Positions 4,201 through 57,627 of a stretch of 64,000 nt of DNA are shown piece after piece. Origin of the DNA: Trichosporon coremiiforme (Eukaryota > Basidiomycota > Tremellomycetes > Trichosporonales > Trichosporonaceae); NCBI GenBank assembly GCA_039545355.1, contig BCJJ01000003.1, positions 434,001-498,000 of the forward strand. The letters are read 5' to 3'. The position numbers and the translations under genes were made by a program. The notes below the pieces were generated by a model that ran no database searches, had not been told where the DNA came from, and was given only the letters and a program-made list of their open reading frames with translations. Every line of letters begins with the position of its first letter. Within the stretch, counting starts at the first letter, position 1.

Positions 4201-5927
4201 ATGAACGCAACACTAGCCACGATGGTACAGGTCGCGGGCGCAGCCGGCACCAACCCGCTCAGCCATGAGGAGCTCTCGGTCATTGTGAGTGCTCCACCAA
4301 CCTCCGGCCTCGCTCCCTCAACATCTCTTCGTTGAAAGCTCTAACCTCTTCTACAGTTCGGTTACCTAAGCATAGCTTGTTGGATCATCGTGTACAGGTT
4401 AGTAGAACTGCGCAGCAGATCGCGATGAGGACGCGGAGGATGGCGCCGGGGCGGCGGACGATGGCGAGGAGGCGGTGGGCGGGAAATCGCCCATAACTCG
4501 CCAACCAAAGCCGCTACGCCTCTCGGACTACCGCAGACGTGTGGAGCGCGCTCTTGGCTACCGTCTGGTACCATTTACAGTGTGCATCTGTCCGCAGTCT
4601 GGCGGGGAAGGCCATTGGTTGCAGTGGGTTGTGGAGCAGGAGCCTGTCCGTTTCTCCTCGGAATTCACGGAAGTGACCAGCACGGCGGTCACTCGTTGTG
4701 CGGACGCTGCCTGGGGTACCTGTCAACGCTTAGCAGCCCGTTGTATCCCAAAGAGCAATGCCTCTTGCTGTCATTGCCGAAGGCTGCCCACCGTCTCCCT
4801 CCTATGCCTCGCATCGCACGCTGCCACACTCCTTGGAACATTAGCTGACATCCACAGTCCCCAAAGTTTGTCCATTGATTCCTGACGTTTTTTCTCGTGC
4901 TCACAGAATGTTCGCTCCAGTTTGGGAAAATTACATGCTTAAATCTGGCGAAGGACTGTCGCTCGGCTTCATCCTGCTCTGGATGGCCGGCGATATTACG
5001 AACCTGGTCGGCGGGCTCATGGCCGGCCTGCTCCCGACGATGATCATCCTGGCGCTGTATGTGAGTAGACTCGTACGACTACGACTGTCGGTGTGCGTCG
5101 CTGTGCAAACAGTCGATCTGCACACGGCAAGAAGCATAAGGAAAGACACAATGTGTCGGGCGAAATGATGATACTCAGAAGTCGCGACAGCCGTGTCCCC
5201 GGCTCAATCTCACGGGTTTGGGCCGGGCGAACGAAGCGTACCCATGGGCTCGACTTCATGCACCACCCTCTGATCGCCCACACTGTCTCCAGCTATCCTG
5301 TAGCTCCGAGCTGACAAACAGTACACGGTGTGCGACCTCGTCCTCCTCTTCCAGATGTACTACTACCGCGCTCTCGCCCGGCGGCGCGAGAAGGCGCTCG
5401 CGGAGCGCCAGCCACTGCTCGAGGTCGAGACGCCGAAGCAGCTTCAGCCCCTCCTTCCCGCATACGTCATGTACCCGCTCATGTTCGCCTTCGTGGCGAT
5501 GTTCGGCATTCTGGCGTGGGTGTACGAGGCTGGTGAGACGCGCAACCCCAAGATTCCGGAGAAAGCCCCCGGCGGAATCGAGCTCGAGTGGCGCTCCCAG
5601 CTCCTGGGCTACATCAGCGCGATCCTGTACTTCGCGTCTCGTGTGCCCCAGATCAGCCACAACTACAAGACGCGCTGCGAGGGCCTCTCACTCGCCATGT
5701 TCTTTTTCTCCATCTCGGGCAACGTGACCTACATCGCGAGCATCCTCTTCAAGTCCCTCGAGTGGAAGTACCTCGTCACGAACGCATCCTGGATTGCCGG
5801 GAGTGTCGTCACCATCTTCCTCGACTTCATCATTCTCGGCCAGTTTGCGTACTTCTCCTGGCAGGACAAGCAGGCCGCGCGCGGGGCCATCTTCATCGAC
5901 GAGGAATTTGACACGGAGAGCGTCTAG
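4201..5927 (+). CDS. PQ-loop repeat protein, vacuolar cationic amino-acid transporter-like (YPQ1 family)
   Basis: Predicted 292-residue, seven-helix membrane protein. Exons are 4201-4284, 4357-4397, an 8-nt microexon 4858-4865, 4921-5060 and 5322-5927. The microexon TCCCCAAA completes the sequence VYSPQIWENY, the first PQ-loop motif; without it the motif is lost. The second PQ motif is in SRVPQISHNYKTRCEGLSL near the C-terminal third. The phrase EGLSLGFILLWMAGD with GDITNL is characteristic of the YPQ/RTC2/STM1 group, which exports basic amino acids across the vacuolar or lysosomal membrane. A second in-frame Met lies at 4222, but 4201 comes first. Family call is strong; substrate is inferred. 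Confidence 0.88.
4858..4865 (+). other. 8-nt microexon encoding the PQ motif
   Basis: Bases TCCCCAAA lie between an acceptor with a perfect local pattern (AGCTGACATCCACAG) and a GTTTGT donor whose intron ends at 4920. The join reads Tyr-Ser-Pro-Gln-Ile-Trp-Glu-Asn, the canonical first PQ-loop motif. Without the microexon the PQ is missing. Confidence 0.8.
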
Positions 5928-8710: not shown

Positions 8711-8804
8711 CGACAAGAGTGAGATTCGAACTCACGCGGGAAAACCCAACCGCTATCTAATTCAATAGCAAGCGATCGCCTTAAAACCACTCGGCCATCT
8801 TGGC
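8711..8804 (-). tRNA. tRNA-Ser(GCT) with an 11-nt intron
   Basis: On the minus strand the sequence folds as a class II tRNA. The D-arm starts GGCCGAGTGG, the anticodon stem is ATCGC/GCGGT, the variable arm is GGG-TTTT-CCC and the T-arm is GTGAG-TTCGAAT-CTCAC. The loop reads TTGCTA, then 11 extra bases (8755-8765), then A, giving anticodon GCT with an intron between positions 37 and 38. The acceptor stem GCCAAGA/TCTTGTC has one mismatch, C2 against U71. The discriminator is G, as usual for serine. Confidence 0.93.
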
Positions 8805-36831: not shown

Positions 36832-37327
36832 CTAGCGGCGCGGCGACAGCCTCTCGTTCCAGATGCGCTGGACTGACTGTCAGCTCGCACATCGGTCACC
36901 AAACAGCTCACAGGCGTCGTCGGGGTCGCCGTACGCAACGATGTAGTGACGGATAGCAGTCGCCTCGGTGCACTTAGTCTCGATGACCAGGGTGCGGACG
37001 TTCTCCCAGTCTGTGCGTCAGCGTCAGCGGGAGCCAGCGAGCGAAGCGAGTTGGCTGGGAGCGTGTGTCAGTGCTGCCGCTCCACTGTCCACGTGCTGCT
37101 CAATGGCGAGAATGCTAGCCCGTGCTGCATCGGGACAGAGGTGCCAGACAGCCAGCCGAGAGTGCAAAGTCACCTCAGGGCACCAGTGAACGCCGGTCGC
37201 CAAAAGTCAAGAGGCGGCAGGGAAGTGATCGACGGTGATCGACAAGTCAAGTTGGACGGTACTCACCGTCAACGTCCATACGAACACCCTGGCGACGGGG
37301 AGGAGCGGGCTTGGTGCTAGTGGCCAT
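36832..37327 (-). CDS. Small UBA-like protein F, 66 residues
   Basis: Three exons; the middle exon is 37010-36912, exactly 99 nt. The protein starts MATSTKPAPPRRQGVRMDVD. The 33-residue module begins DWENVRTLVIETKCTEATAI and ends in DPDDA, followed by FQRIWNERLSPRR. Both introns are phase 1, the first splitting the module's Asp codon (G|AC), the second splitting the Phe codon after the module (T|TC). This is the same structure as the five genes at 52-57 kb. The pattern of hydrophobic positions and the ETKC turn suggest a UBA-like three-helix fold. The gene is too split to show as one ORF. Its first intron contains a GCGAGCGAAGCGAG hairpin. Confidence 0.78.
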
Positions 37328-52175: not shown

Positions 52176-53316
52176 CTATGGCTCAGGTTCGGTCTTGACC
52201 TGCGGGGTCTTCGGAGCGGGCTGCTTCGGGGCTCGTTTGCGAGTCTTCTTCGCAGGAGCGGCTGGAGTATCGTCCTTAGGAACCCCTGGGGCAGTAATGT
52301 TCTTGGTCGCAGAAGCCTCAGCGGGCTCAGCAGCGATGCGTTTCTTGCGGTTCCTCTTCCGCTTGCCAGGCTCACCCTCCGCGTCCGCTGCGGTCTTGTT
52401 CTTCGGGTCGGCAGCGGGGCAAGCAGGCACAGCGTCCTCATGTGCCCGCTCAGGCGCGGTCGGTGGAAGTGGAGGCTGGGCCCTGTTACGCGGCCTCCGG
52501 GGCCTCTTCACAGCCCGGTTAGTCTCTGCAGCTTTGCCCAGTGATGAAGCCCGGTCATTCGTCTGGGCGCTTGTTGCGGGTCGAGTCTCGGCTGCTGGTC
52601 CAGCCGGAGGCTCATCGGGGTGATACTTAGGGATGGAAGCGGGCTCAGTCTTAACTGCTGCCTTCTTCTGGCGAGGCTTGCGCGGCTTACGGGGCCTGGT
52701 GTCGGAGGGTGCCGGTCTAAGGGCCGGGTGCTTTCCCATTCCCTTCTCTGGCTTTTGCGGCGAGACGGGTTCGGTCTTCACCTCCGCCTCTGCCACCCGT
52801 AGTTCTCTCCCTGTCCCGATGTTCTCGTTGTTCCCGTTCTTCTCGTTGCTCACGATGTTCACGTTGTTCTCGTTGTTCACGTTGTTCATGTTCGGCTTCA
52901 CCCCTGAGTTCACGGCGAACTGATCAGCCGCAGCGACAGCTTCACCAGGCTGAGCTGTAGTAGTCTGCGGAGGTTGCTGAGCCGAGAGCTGTAGCCGTGG
53001 ATGGAGGTGGTGGAGTGGACGCATGAGGTCCTCGATACATGCCGCTGATTGTTGTTAGGACTAGTGAGAGTGGAAGGGACGCACCGAGGAAATGAACGTC
53101 CCTCACGGCGCTGGAGTAAGTGGCCAGTGCCTCGTCCCAAGTACTGTTCGTCAGGGCCATGAGTCTTCCAACGCTGATGTAGTCTGGGTTCAGCACTCAG
53201 CACACTCTCAATACGATCCAAAGGAGAAAAGAGTGAGATCTTGGGGCGTTATCGAACTCACCGATCTCGGTCATTTCACGTCCAGCCGCCGCCGGGGCGG
53301 CTCTGTGTGATGTCAT
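52176..53316 (-). CDS. UBA-like protein A with long basic disordered tail, 340 residues
   Basis: Exons 53316-53262, 53183-53085 (99 nt) and 53044-52176. The short N-terminus MTSHRAAPAAAGREMTEI leads into the 33-residue module, starting DYISVGRLMALTNSTWDEAL. The tail of about 285 residues has an Asn-rich tract (NMNNVNNENNVN) and repeated basic clusters (RKPRKPRQKK, VKRPRRPRNR, GKRKRNRKKR) mixed with VKTEP phrases. That composition suggests a nuclear, perhaps nucleic-acid-binding tail. This member has Ser where the others have a conserved Cys. First intron phase 1 within Asp, second phase 1. It is the first of five tandem genes. The function is unknown. Confidence 0.78.
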
Positions 53317-53791
53317 CTTGGCACCAGCTGGATGTCGATGGCGATGATGAGAATGGTGGCGATGAAAAAGTCGATGAAGGAGAAGAGGACCTAGATACAG
53401 TAGAGGAGAGTGGGATGGGTTCGAGTGCTGCGCAGACGGACAGACGTGTGCACCGTCGCTCCCTCTCCAAAGACGCGGTGCACCGCTTGCCCAGCGCCGA
53501 GAAAGCATATCGCACCATTGCACAGTCTGCACCAACGCACCACCACCATCATCGCATCGCGTCCTCCACATTCACGACGCGGGCACATTCTCACCCCGCG
53601 TACGCGTCAGTCTGATGAGTCCAAGCGTTCACGGTCCAGTGAGTCGTATATGCACGAAGAGTAAGTGAGAGGCGAATGCATCCCCTACCTATTGACTATC
53701 TATTCACAATGCCAGCGCGGGCTCCGTTTTGACCGTCGCTGTTTCGGTTTCGTTTTGCGCCCCTATGGTAAGGCTTCATTTTGATTGACGC
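53317..53791. other. Spacer between UBA-like genes A and B
   Basis: 475 bp. No further 99-nt module exon found on either strand. Serves as promoter of gene A and 3' flank of gene B. Confidence 0.45.
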
Positions 53792-54130
53792 CTATTTGGT
53801 GCCTTCCCCGCGGAAGTGCAAGCGCTGCTCAAGCTCGATCAGAATGTAGTAGACTGTGCTCGTCAGCTATCTCCGCTGTTCGACAGCTCACAAGCTGCGT
53901 CGTACGCCTTCTCGGCGAAGAAGTACGCACGGTGCGCGAGGTCGTAGTGGCACCCGGCTGACTTCATGAGGTGCTTGATCATGTGCTGGTCTGTCGTTAG
54001 GGAAAGAAGCTGGAGTGGGGAATGAGGGCTCAAACTCACCGTGGGGAGTCGGCTGGTCAGGGACCGACTCGGGAGGGTCACGCCAGGGGTTGGACTCGTC
54101 GAGGCGGGGCTTGTCGGTGTCCGCGTACAT
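53792..54130 (-). CDS. Small UBA-like protein B, 83 residues
   Basis: Middle exon 53990-53892 (99 nt). The N-terminus MYADTDKPRLDESNPWRDPP is acidic and Pro-rich. The module starts DQHMIKHLMKSAGCHYDLAH and ends AYDAA, then FYYILIELEQRLHFRGEGTK completes a third helix. Both introns are phase 1 at the family positions (G|AC and T|TC). It stops with TAG at 53792-53794. The module's Ala-Gly-Cys replaces the Thr-x-Cys of relatives. No known name. Coding is supported by the open frame over two introns and by alignment to four neighbours. Confidence 0.78.
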
Positions 54131-54691
54131 GACTAGTTGCTGGAACAGTGAGTGCGTAATGAGGCGAGCTCCTTTTGAGTATGATAGCCTGGGGAGACCA
54201 ACGATGGAGAGCGGGTCAAGAATGGTGGGTTTATATACCTTCCAACCTCGAGATTCTGACTCGTCTCGGACGTCTCGGACGAGTCTGGGCGCCGACACAG
54301 GCGGGACCATCTGGTATCGTGATGGCGTGCTGTATCTGATAGCACCGGCTGCGCCCTCGCATCTGGGAATGCTCCCACAATAGCTCTTCACGTGCTCACC
54401 GGGACAATGGGACGGACTGGAGTGTGTGCCAAGCTGTGTGGGAGGTGTGTGGCGCGTCGCACTCATTTTACTCTATTTTTCGAGCCTTTCGCCCCCACCT
54501 CCACCATTCGGTCCGCTGACTCCGTGACGGCCGTACGTTGCAGCCCTTTACCCTCCGCCTAGCCTTCCACCTATGCACACATCATACACGTGTTGGTTTG
54601 GGCCTTCGTCACTCGGACAATGGGTAAGTCGTGCATGCGGCGGCTGTGGGAGACTACAGAGAGTGGACTCCACGTGGAAAAGGTTGGCGCG
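54131..54691. other. Spacer between UBA-like genes B and C
   Basis: 561 bp, promoter of gene B and 3' flank of gene C. A short duplicated stretch, GTCTCGGAC twice, lies at about 54264-54284. No coding exon found. Confidence 0.45.
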
Positions 54692-55003
54692 TCAGGAGCG
54701 ACGCTGTTGCTGTTGGTTCAGTTCGAACGCAATCTCCATGAGGATGTCCCTTTCAGGCTGGTTCGTGTTGATATAGCGTGCTGCGTGTCAGGGTGTATTC
54801 AGGGGGGTGCCGAGCTGGGGACTCACCGGCCAGCTCCATATTCGCCATACAGGAGCAGTATGCGACGACGGCTTCTTCTTGGGTGCAGTTCGTCTGGAGG
54901 ATGAGAATGCCGACGCAGTGCTGGTCTAACCATTAGGGAGATAGGAACGTCGGATCTTACCGAAGGCGCTCATGTTGCGGTATGCTCTGTAGTCGATAGG
55001 CAT
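54692..55003 (-). CDS. Small UBA-like protein C, 76 residues
   Basis: Middle exon 54925-54827 (99 nt). Exon 1 encodes MPIDYRAYRNMSAF. The module starts DQHCVGILILQTNCTQEEAV and ends NMELA; the third exon begins ARYINTNQPERDILMEIAFE and ends in a Gln-rich QQQQRRS. Introns are phase 1 at the same two positions as the other members. It shares the QTNCT-EEA-V-AY pattern most closely with gene D (ETRCT-EEA-L-AY), suggesting a recent duplication between C and D. The product is unknown. Confidence 0.78.
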
Positions 55004-55322
55004 GTCGCAGAGCTCCCTAGGGGTCGGGCGAGAGCTTGGACGGTGAGTGAATTGGGTTGGTAAAGAGCGAGGTGAAGAGGTGTACATTGGCTGAGGAATG
55101 TCTTCACGTCTGTCCTCAGTGTCCCTACGGCTAAGCTAACACTTGGCGCGAGAGAGTGACCAGCCCACCTCACTGTCAGCAGCTGGAAGTACACTCTCGC
55201 TGGCCTGTGCACACTCCCCAGCCAGAATGCAGAAATCGGCAGTACGAGCTCCCCAACCTGTGCTACACTGATTTTCGGCCAGCTCGTACTCTGTGAAGTA
55301 CAACATGCATTACGTACAGCAA
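55004..55322. other. Spacer between UBA-like genes C and D
   Basis: 319 bp, promoter of gene C and 3' flank of gene D. Nothing else found. Confidence 0.4.
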
Positions 55323-55925
55323 CTACGAAGCCTTGGGGCTCCCGGCGGCGCTCCCTGCGGCGCTCTGAGCGCCCTCAGCCTTCTCCTCCTTCTTGTACGG
55401 CTCAGGATAACCAGATCCAGTTCTGTCAGCAGTGTACTCCACCACCTCGAGCTCTTCATCCAGCAAGTTGGGATTGACAATGTTGCGCTCGGCCTTGGCA
55501 GCGAGAAACTCCTGCGCGAGATTGGCCCTCTCGCGCAACTTCTTCTCCTTGATTTTCTCAAGCTGCCTCTCCGCAGCCTCCTCGTCGGCGCGGCGATTGT
55601 GAATGTACGCGGCTGGATATGAGTGAGGGTTTGAAGGGCGAACCGTACCAGCAGACGTCATGTTGCGGCCGCAGGCGAAGTAGGCGAGCATTGCTTCTTC
55701 CCAAGTGCAGCGCGTCTCGAGCATGAGTACGCCAACAAAGTGGGCGTCTACTGTCAGCGGTAGTCAGAGCGCAGGCGGTCGGCGAGAAGTTTTATCTGAA
55801 AGAACAGGGGAGGGGGGCTTGCTAGCAGCCCTCAAAGTTGTGCATCACTGCCCTAAGTCCGCTCATTACTCACCGACATCATTCATGCGCAAGAAGAAGC
55901 GGAAGTTGAAGTTGTAGTTGGGCAT
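55323..55925 (-). CDS. UBA-like protein D with charged helical tail, 146 residues
   Basis: Middle exon 55747-55649 (99 nt). Exon 1 encodes MPNYNFNFRFFLRMNDV, oddly rich in Asn and Phe. The module begins DAHFVGVLMLETRCTWEEAM and ends NMTSA. Exon 3 continues AAYIHNRRADEEAAERQLEK, a strongly charged helix that runs on for about 40 residues, then an Ala/Gly/Ser-rich end. Introns are phase 1 at the family positions. This is the second longest member. The charged helix might be a coiled coil, so a binding partner is possible, but nothing in the sequence names it. Confidence 0.78.
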
Positions 55926-56564
55926 CGTAAGAGGTGGCCACCTCCGGGTTTGCAATCGGAGCTGTTGAGAAGGGTCTGAAGAGTTTTTGCAACTGCAGTG
56001 AAGACCTGTCCCCACTCCAATGCAAGTCTTGTGTGTCCCTCTCAGTCGTCCTCGACGCTTGTATTGCAGGCTGTCCATCAAGGACGTCGCTCTGGGATGT
56101 GATTATGGAGGGTGAACGGATGCCACATTCGCACCGCTTGTGTGTAGCGAGGCCCAAGCTGCGCAGTTCGCCTACAGCAGCGACCGAAGCTCTGAGCAGA
56201 CTGTTTCGCAACTTGCAGAGGCGTGGTAAACCCATGGGGGAAACGATGAGCCGCCGTTGCTGTCTATTGCGGCGCATTCACGATGCATCCAGGAGTCGAT
56301 CTGGATGAACATCCCGATCCCTAACAGATGCGCATACTCCTCCAACTGAATTGATGGTATTGTCTGTCAGATGAACACTGCAGCTGTTATAGCCCCAACG
56401 ACAACCCAGTATACATTGAGATACTACACTACTGCTACACTTCCTCCTGCTCCTCCCCCACGCCCATCCCCATCCCCGGGCCACTGCCTCTACTAATTTA
56501 CTGTGACTGCGAATCTTGTTCATCAGGGTCAAGAAGTCCCGTTAGGCAGGTGACGACGCATGCG
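55926..56564. other. Spacer between UBA-like genes D and E
   Basis: 639 bp. Searched on both strands for another 99-nt module exon and none found. ORFs here look spurious. Confidence 0.4.
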
Positions 56565-56817
56565 CTACATGCGGGCCTCGATCCAGTCCACTGCTTGTCA
56601 GTTACACCCAGCTGTAGCTCTAACTCACTCGCAACAACCATGTCGCCCTCGGCCCCGAAGTAGGCCTGGTACGCCATCTCCCACGAGCAGCCCGTCTCGT
56701 TGACGAGGTACTGGATGTTGGCGAGGTCTGAGGTGTCAGCGTCTACTTGATGGCCATGGGCAACGTCGATAGGAGTGGGAGGGAGGACTCACCGAGCTCG
56801 TCGACGTCGTTGAGCAT
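56565..56817 (-). CDS. Minimal UBA-like protein E, 49 residues
   Basis: Middle exon 56727-56629 (99 nt). Exon 1 encodes only MLNDVDEL, exon 3 only MDWIEARM before TAG. The module, starting DLANIQYLVNETGCSWEMAY with GAEGDMVVA at the end, is the closest of the six to a textbook UBA: ETGCS turn, then A-x2-AY, then GDM-A and a Trp-Ile in helix 3. Introns are phase 1 at the family positions. The frame stays open upstream to a Met at 57018, so a longer N-terminus is possible, but that part has low-complexity Ser/Leu/Thr content. This is the family's minimal form. Confidence 0.75.
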
Positions 56818-57544
56818 GTAGACGGAAGACACTGTTAGGTTGTTGGTAGAGGTAGAGAAGGTAGAAGCTGAGGTGAGGTGAGATTTGAGAGGAAGCTGAG
56901 GAAGAGAGTAGAGAGGGACTGTTGCTGAGGATGGGGAGGAAAGAGGACGTGGAGACGCTCGTTTCTTATACCCTTCGCGACGAGGAGCGAGCGGGCGTTG
57001 ATGGACAGCGTCGCACACTCGCGCGGAGTGCGTTCAGCACTGGTCACCACCTTCGCTAGAAGGCGAAGGTGGTGCGACATCAGTGCGGCGTGTTCATCAG
57101 CGGCTCGAGAGGACCCGAGCCTGGACCGCGATGATGGACAAAGGCGGGCCGGACGCACACACGTGCACACACAACGCGGTCCGGCATGCGGATATTGCCA
57201 GAACGGGAGAGCCACTGAAAGACGTGAGTCTCTCAATGCCTCACGGCGCTACTGCTGGGCAATCTATGCATTCAGTAGCGTGCTCGCATGGCGGGGAGTG
57301 CCTGCATGACTCTCCTCCGGGAAGCAACCCTCCTCGTAAGCGTTGATGAACAAATATTCGCGGAAATCATCACAATCCGCTGCACTTCTTCCATCAGCTT
57401 GATTTAAAGCCTAACTGTTCCTATCAACTACAGGGACTCTCAGAGCACAATCCTGGACGCGTAGAGGTGCAGAAACCCGGGTTTGCGCGAGCGGGGTTGC
57501 GCTCACCGGCATCCCCGCTCGGACCCGTCAGCAATAACATTTCG
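56818..57544. other. Upstream region of UBA-like gene E and 5' flank of the tRNA
   Basis: 727 bp, holding the promoter of gene E (-). No gene recognised. The ORF extending gene E upstream to 57018 may or may not be translated. Confidence 0.4.
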
Positions 57545-57627
57545 GAGGATGTGGCTCAGCGGTAGAAGCGGCGGATTGCAATTACGCAACCATCCGTAGG
57601 TCCCCGGTTCGATCCCGGGCATTCTCT
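57545..57627 (+). tRNA. tRNA-Cys(GCA) with a 10-nt intron
   Basis: Acceptor stem GAGGATG/CATTCTC with one G-T wobble, D-arm GCTCAGCGGTAG, anticodon stem GCGGA/TCCGT, T-arm CCCGG-TTCGATC-CCGGG. The loop TTGCAA is followed by ten extra bases (57582-57591) and then A, so the anticodon is GCA and the intron lies between positions 37 and 38. A T-run follows at 57631-57635, a likely RNA polymerase III terminator. Confidence 0.92.

Follow-up and report, generated by a model that had tools for sequence, protein, structure and literature searches.

A family of small Trichosporon genes whose products are probable stand-alone relatives of the NAC-alpha UBA domain

What does a 99-nucleotide (nt) exon encode that recurs in five small adjacent genes of the basidiomycete Trichosporon coremiiforme, and by what route did it come to be repeated? 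The genes, A to E, lie at 52176-56817 of a window of 64 kb, the whole stretch of DNA that was analyzed (contig BCJJ01000003.1, positions 434,001-498,000 of the forward strand), and positions below are those of this window unless another contig or locus is named. We propose that each of them, like a sixth gene, F, encodes a single UBA-type domain of three helices and about 41 residues in short or divergent surroundings, and that the six would descend, through old duplications of whole genes, from an ancestor that had both introns. The best explanation overall, to which we give a probability of roughly 0.6, is that their products are stand-alone relatives of the UBA domain of NAC-alpha. The six genes, all on the minus strand, are as follows.

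Exons 53316-53262, 53183-53085 and 53044-52176, minus strand: gene A (model), 340 residues; 99-nt exon 53183-53085, carrying helices 1 and 2 and the start of helix 3; partner A'
Exons 54130-54040, 53990-53892 and 53853-53792, minus strand: gene B (model), 83 residues; 99-nt exon 53990-53892; partner B', relative P0003
Exons 55003-54961, 54925-54827 and 54780-54692, minus strand: gene C (model), 76 residues; 99-nt exon 54925-54827
Exons 55925-55874, 55747-55649 and 55612-55323, minus strand: gene D (model), 146 residues; 99-nt exon 55747-55649; partner D', relatives P0001 and P0002
Exons 56817-56793, 56727-56629 and 56590-56565, minus strand: gene E (model), 49 residues; 99-nt exon 56727-56629
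Exons 37327-37267, 37010-36912 and 36872-36832, minus strand: gene F (model), 66 residues, with phase-1 GT-AG introns; 99-nt exon 37010-36912

The models of A-E are five three-exon frames, all open from ATG to stop, with introns that are GT-AG in 10/10 cases and phase 1 in 10/10; the original prediction had placed the five 99-nt middle exons between phase-1 introns with coordinates exact to the base. The open frames and the exon structure of A-F are computed; splicing, fold and origin are inferred. The product of gene E contains little besides the UBA-like domain, and in gene A the module is followed by a basic tail some 280 residues long (52176-53044, minus strand) with three V-K-T-E-P motifs, which we take to be SUMO-site-like. 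Ahead of the module, reading A-F by eye, there is a variable sequence of 8-31 codons. In B, E and F the 200 nt ahead of the gene include a TATA sequence; in A, C and D they do not. We regard A-F as almost certainly real genes.

When the assembly to which the window belongs (42,036,993 bases in 134 contigs) is searched at the DNA level, the array is found again on a second contig (C14:676092-679264), as six separate matches with 68-92% identity. The 9.9 kb stretch fetched around this copy (L008) contains five partner genes in the same order as in the window. On one flank both arrays have the end of a myosin gene (88% identity over 2.6 kb; a myosin head domain was detected in the window gene), and on the other L008 matches window positions 56.4-60.1 kb in pieces. 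In the window, Rfam places transfer RNA (tRNA) genes at 57545-57627 (plus strand), adjoining gene E, and at 8711-8804 (minus strand); L008 has a tRNA-like gene at the place matching the first of these. The noncoding segment 54441-54493, upstream of B, is 92% identical over 53 bases in the second copy, above the rest of the array. Four partners are intact: A', B', D' and E' each have a middle exon of 99 nt between phase-1 introns, the sole exception to GT-AG among these introns being the second intron of A' (L008 6940-6973), which starts with GC and is thus GC-AG. Exon 2 of C' (L008 4929-5026) has 98 nt and its profile match is split over two frames, so that C' is broken, or out of frame, in the present assembly. 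Counting the partner of F, exon 2 measures 99 nt in 5/6 partners. All intact copies keep both introns and have a start codon 25-94 nt before the end of exon 1. The start of E lies five codons later than that of E', there being no ATG within 56817-56832 at the position where E' starts. A' ends after 121 residues without the long tail of gene A, and the module is therefore the conserved part of this pair. The ordinary UBA genes of the genome are also mostly paired, on different contigs. Two hybrid Trichosporon strains have genomes of 40.3 and 42.4 Mb (PMC7026411), and the genome size and gene pairing seen here probably reflect a hybrid Trichosporonales genome as well.

The sixth gene was found by a six-frame profile search of the window and L008, with a profile built from what exon 2 contributes to nine intact modules, C' not being among them. 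It matched 37017-36883 with an E-value of 0.025, in a search that recovered the known copies, C' among them (E 2.4e-10), and also returned five further rows at E 1.9-6.6. Gene F is solitary, some 15 kb away from the array, and its module carries D1, V5, L8, T12, C14, A19, Y23 and A33, with I37 contributed by exon 3, whose acceptor was picked among adjacent AGs partly for agreement at I37. Its partner F' (C14:697408-697509, L079) has the same structure and is 82% identical over 34 residues. With F at 36832-37327 added, the original count of five genes becomes six.

Alignment of the modules bears out the residue pattern first read from A-E: D1, L8, A19 and Y23 are invariant in the five, V/I occupies position 5, A/C position 26, and C14 occurs in 4/5. 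The exon, originally called identical, is so in length; in sequence the other modules of the five share 24-38% identity with E. The pattern exceeds chance: in a leave-one-gene-out profile test across the six genes every module scored above all scored shuffles of itself (5000 made per gene, 4363-4832 scored, none reaching the gene's score), the narrowest margin being that of F, whose 15.9 bits compare with 12.0 for its best shuffle. At E<=10, a search of the whole genome with the family consensus matched 12 places, none of which lies outside the six genes and their partners; as the consensus was built from 11/12 of these places, more diverged members could escape, and the search therefore shows that nothing else is comparably close. 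A weak match at C12:974102 (E 0.87) was set aside, since visual inspection of both strands there showed nothing like the module.

Between the two genome copies the modules are under purifying selection. For the pooled modules of A, B, D and E against their partners (41 codons), the nonsynonymous rate (dN) is 0.219 and the synonymous rate (dS) 0.653, a ratio of 0.34; C was left out of the pool, its partner being out of frame. Single pairs give ratios of 0.34 for E, 0.24 for D, 0.18 for A, 0.66 for B and 0.19 for F, and a Fisher test on the rounded pooled counts without F gives p 3e-7.

The 99-nt exon stops inside helix 3, as placed through the alignment to UBA and NAC-alpha domains, and exon 3 starts with the rest of the domain, contributing an isoleucine, I37, that is invariant in the nine aligned modules and in both F modules. 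Since the exon ends in helix 3 it encodes no whole domain. This bears directly on the suggestion that the exon is a self-contained, movable phase-1 module spread by shuffling. The symmetrical phase-1 borders and the diverged flanks would speak for such a history; against it are the completion of the domain by exon 3, on which ground we rejected shuffling, and the retention in intact copies of both introns and of a start codon near the end of exon 1. Nor did the consensus search, at its sensitivity, find the exon in other genes of the genome. The flanking exons, described as unrelated, have indeed diverged, except that the domain runs on into the opening codons of exon 3, and the ends of exon 1 look alike by eye in several genes (A, R-E-M-T-E-I; C, R-N-M-S-A-F; D, R-M-N-D-V; F, R-M-D-V-D). 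Given a domain that is finished in exon 3 and exon-1 ends that look alike, whole-gene duplication fits better, and we consider exon shuffling very improbable. Of the two routes in the original prediction, duplication is thus the one that stands. The duplications look old, since the sole match in a DNA self-comparison of the array is between exon 2 of D and of C (71% over 79 nt).

The nature of the domain was assessed by profile-profile alignment (hhalign) of the nine-module alignment, which did not include F and F', against sets of domains from the same genome, with 300 column permutations per set. The sets comprised 12/28 PF00627 (UBA) matches, 4/7 PF19026 matches (two NAC-alpha and two HYPK-like) and 6/16 CUE matches, hand-chosen, mostly one per pair, and including two below the cut-off (L032, L076). 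The UBA set scored 20.5 against a permutation maximum of 16.0, the NAC/HYPK set 27.3 against 12.0 (5.3 with the modules reversed), and the two together 30.7 against 14.9, with 0/300 permutations reaching the score in each case; the CUE set scored 11.3 against a maximum of 13.2, with 3/300 reaching it. Reversed modules scored 5-8. When A and A' are omitted the scores are 23.4 for UBA, 27.7 for NAC/HYPK, 31.4 for both and 10.4 for CUE, against permutation maxima of 21.8, 13.1, 18.0 and 12.0, respectively. CUE domains share the general UBA fold, and the prediction had left the choice between UBA and CUE open: the first alternative gains from these controlled comparisons and from weak PDB matches, and the second, with a score near the permutation null and no M-F-P loop in any module, was rejected. 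The module is thus very probably a UBA-type domain.

Its best match is the UBA domain of the genome's own NAC-alpha, with which it aligns without a gap. Taken singly, the modules resemble the NAC-alpha UBA at p<=0.01 in 9/11 cases, compared with 3/11 for RAD23 UBA2, 1/11 for HYPK and 0/11 for CUE. The two NAC-alpha genes (L059 at C2:1300136 and L060 at C4:748532) have the NAC domain in their first exon (5.5e-21 in L059, the one tested). Both read ...GDLINA, after which a GT-AG intron splits the following codon behind its first base, and the protein closes with IMRIGS; gene E reads ...GDMVVA, has an intron in the matching codon and phase, and closes with MDWIEARM. The NAC-alpha intron site, in both copies, is therefore the codon after A33 in phase 1, that is, the site of module intron 2. 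With two module sites and about 117 codon-phase positions, the chance of one shared site is about 2%, which is not negligible. The likeness to the NAC-alpha (EGD2) UBA of PF19026 extends to 30 gapless columns, equal loop length and the site and phase of the intron in helix 3. The differences are that the family has no detected NAC domain (no Pfam NAC match in the scanned A-F proteins, in the same scan that gave 5.5e-21 for the genome's NAC-alpha), that the module stands nearly alone and has no Pfam match, and that D1 and Y23 are features of the family not found in NAC-alpha. From these likenesses in sequence and gene structure, the family was probably derived from NAC-alpha.

It might be argued instead that this is a UBA-type family without any special link to NAC-alpha, the shared intron and the similarity being chance or an old UBA feature. 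The 2% coincidence and the fact that the similarities to the NAC and UBA sets are of the same order lend this some weight. However, sequence and intron position are independent lines of evidence that point the same way, and the full-length UBA, HYPK and CUE stretches extracted from the genome read open through the site, as far as an exon-wise search, which favors such domains, can tell. We regard the absence of a NAC-alpha link as rather unlikely. The genome separately contains a pair (L057, L058) which, by sequence, we take to be HYPK-like. Like the present genes, HYPK is a small protein with a NAC-alpha-type UBA; it differs in that the HYPK-like exon here reads through the intron site shared by the modules and NAC-alpha, and in having a long central helix ahead of its UBA (PMC11372111).

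Several observations weigh against a NAC-alpha-related UBA domain. A and A' taken singly do not match NAC-alpha (p 0.19 and 0.42), 4/11 modules match a CUE sequence at p<0.05, and module intron 1 has no counterpart in NAC-alpha, where by eye the upstream intron lies elsewhere and in another phase. No Pfam family exceeds its cut-off, where a cut-off was shown, in the A-F family proteins: UBA (PF00627) appears in 1/9 members, D' (E 0.088; 13.1 bits against a cut-off of 22.4; helices 2-3), and UBA_HYPK (PF19026) in none of the nine at E<=10. F, F' and the family consensus have no Pfam UBA match at E<=1, and at that threshold the consensus matches no family. Bac_rhamnosid6H in B' (E 0.0023) is better than the UBA match of D', and still below its cut-off. 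The module profile finds four PDB matches at E<=10, all RAD23A chains (one a Vpr-RAD23A fusion) over helices 2-3, the best at a sub-threshold E of 0.12; with the flanks included there are eight, and the first is a pyocin protein, not a UBA. A structure model of exon 2 alone gives two helices, 2-12 and 16-33, with a predicted local distance difference test score (pLDDT) of 84, and its Foldseek search returned 33 matches at E<=10, none at E<=0.001 and none labeled UBA. Finally, dN/dS is high in B (0.66), and the reading frame of C' is broken. B and C thus evolve or decay faster than the others, and it need not be that every one of the six genes is important. The Pfam matches below cut-off (TraI_2, E 0.14; DUF5026, 0.22; COX14, 0.32; Noc2, 0.24; and Bac_rhamnosid6H) were taken as chance.

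These results might be read to mean that the module is some other small two- or three-helix fold, with a likeness to UBA that stems from amphipathic periodicity. That no Pfam family passes and that the exon-2 model has no confident PDB match would be expected of such a fold. Yet the CUE set, despite the shared general fold, stays near the null while the UBA and NAC sets rise above it, and the structure model covers exon 2 only; as helix 3 is cut in it, the model and its fold search, whose weak matches include CdbA, HU, homeodomain and Arc/CopG chains, are uninformative. Besides the pyocin protein, the PDB matches with flanks are 1wj7, a 'hypothetical protein' aligned without a gap over 44 residues, five RAD23A/B chains and one LATS2 chain; the matched stretches of LATS2, 1wj7 and RAD23 are presumably UBA domains. 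A fold other than UBA seems improbable to us.

If the modules are UBA-type domains, they could, as was first supposed, be stand-alone ubiquitin-binding adaptors. The score of the PF00627 set (20.5, with 0/300 permutations) is compatible with this, the PDB matches are mostly RAD23 chains, and D, D' and C resemble RAD23 UBA2, helix 2 of gene D being A-Y-F-A-C-like. The M-G-F/Y loop of UBA domains makes the ubiquitin contact, and most of the genome's own UBAs have it; it is not present in the module alignments. There the loop reads x-G/R/N/H/K-C/S, with one extra residue when aligned to the UBA set, whereas ubiquitin-type UBAs, RAD23 UBA2 included, have an M-G-F/L-G-F loop one residue shorter. 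The missing MGF-type loop would make ubiquitin binding by the modules less likely. Moreover, most members resemble NAC-alpha more closely, and as of 2015 ubiquitin binding by the NAC UBA had not been demonstrated (PMC4664479). Ubiquitin as the ligand thus appears unlikely.

How far does the family extend? Searches of about 5.8 billion proteins at E<=10 yielded relatives among 1/1250 candidates (P0001), 2/680 (P0002 and P0001) and 1/5 (P0003), and the family is so far seen in Trichosporon-like fungi only. P0002 is A1Q2_01356 of Trichosporon asahii CBS 8904, a relative of gene D (E 1.3e-31) deposited as a hypothetical protein; it is close to D in exons 1 and 3 and differs from it in that the deposited model lacks the 99-nt exon 2. 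P0001 has the same first 17 residues as P0002, keeps the 99-nt exon in frame and reads through intron 1. P0003 is a close relative of B' that reads through intron 2. In keeping with the claim that no such family had been described, none turned up in these searches, the literature searched has no mention of the A1Q2_01356 locus tag, and no description of the family appears, by title and the start of the abstract, among the matches listed on Trichosporon UBA domains, tandem duplication or small or orphan genes and on stand-alone UBA microproteins.

The structure of P0002 raises the question of whether the 99-nt exon is a cassette, with regular skipping that would yield a product now with and now without the domain. 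The exon is symmetrical in every gene, P0002 corresponds to exons 1 and 3 of D joined directly, the module being absent, and some skipped exons have been reported from RNA sequencing of T. asahii (PMC5736589). On the other hand, P0001 keeps the exon in frame, the module is under purifying selection, and skipping would leave E with 16 residues. Since gene annotation in these T. asahii drafts is described as having no experimental basis (PMC5736589), the absence of the exon from P0002 probably reflects the choice of a gene finder, or possibly exon skipping; regular skipping as the rule for the family strikes us as improbable.

Returning to stand-alone relatives of the NAC-alpha UBA, what might they do? 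The UBA of NAC-alpha docks Naa15 and SRP54 through one interface (PMC11372111), the UBA domains of HypK and NAC are necessary and sufficient for high-affinity binding to NatA (PMC12830823), binding of yeast Chp1 requires the UBA of Egd2 (PMC10869706), and in yeast the NAC-alpha UBA is a negative regulator of NAC chaperone activity (PMC4664479). A guess from homology is that A-F would most simply act on a partner of the NAC-alpha UBA, because a NAC-alpha-type UBA is what they carry free-standing. By analogy with HYPK, their products could bind the helical docking sites of that domain (Naa15 of NatA, SRP54) or partners of the domain such as Chp1, and would thus compete with NAC, or tune it, at the ribosome exit. 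We put this competition forward tentatively.

It is conceivable, if doubtful, that this lineage copied the docking domain of NAC-alpha into free-standing microproteins that occupy sites on NatA, SRP54 or ribosome-associated chaperones and so set which factor reaches the nascent chain. If true, this would be a HYPK-like layer of control, independently evolved and expanded to six genes. UBA domains usually sit in larger proteins; here the smallest member is nearly all UBA. Genes of this kind are easily missed: annotation of related hybrid Trichosporon genomes discarded products of less than 100 residues (PMC6642101), a filter that would drop B, C, E and F; transcriptomes of T. coremiiforme and T. 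ovoides are reported in that study. Should the proteins act on the docking sites of NAC-alpha, they would be natural probes of how NatA, the signal recognition particle and other factors share the ribosome exit.

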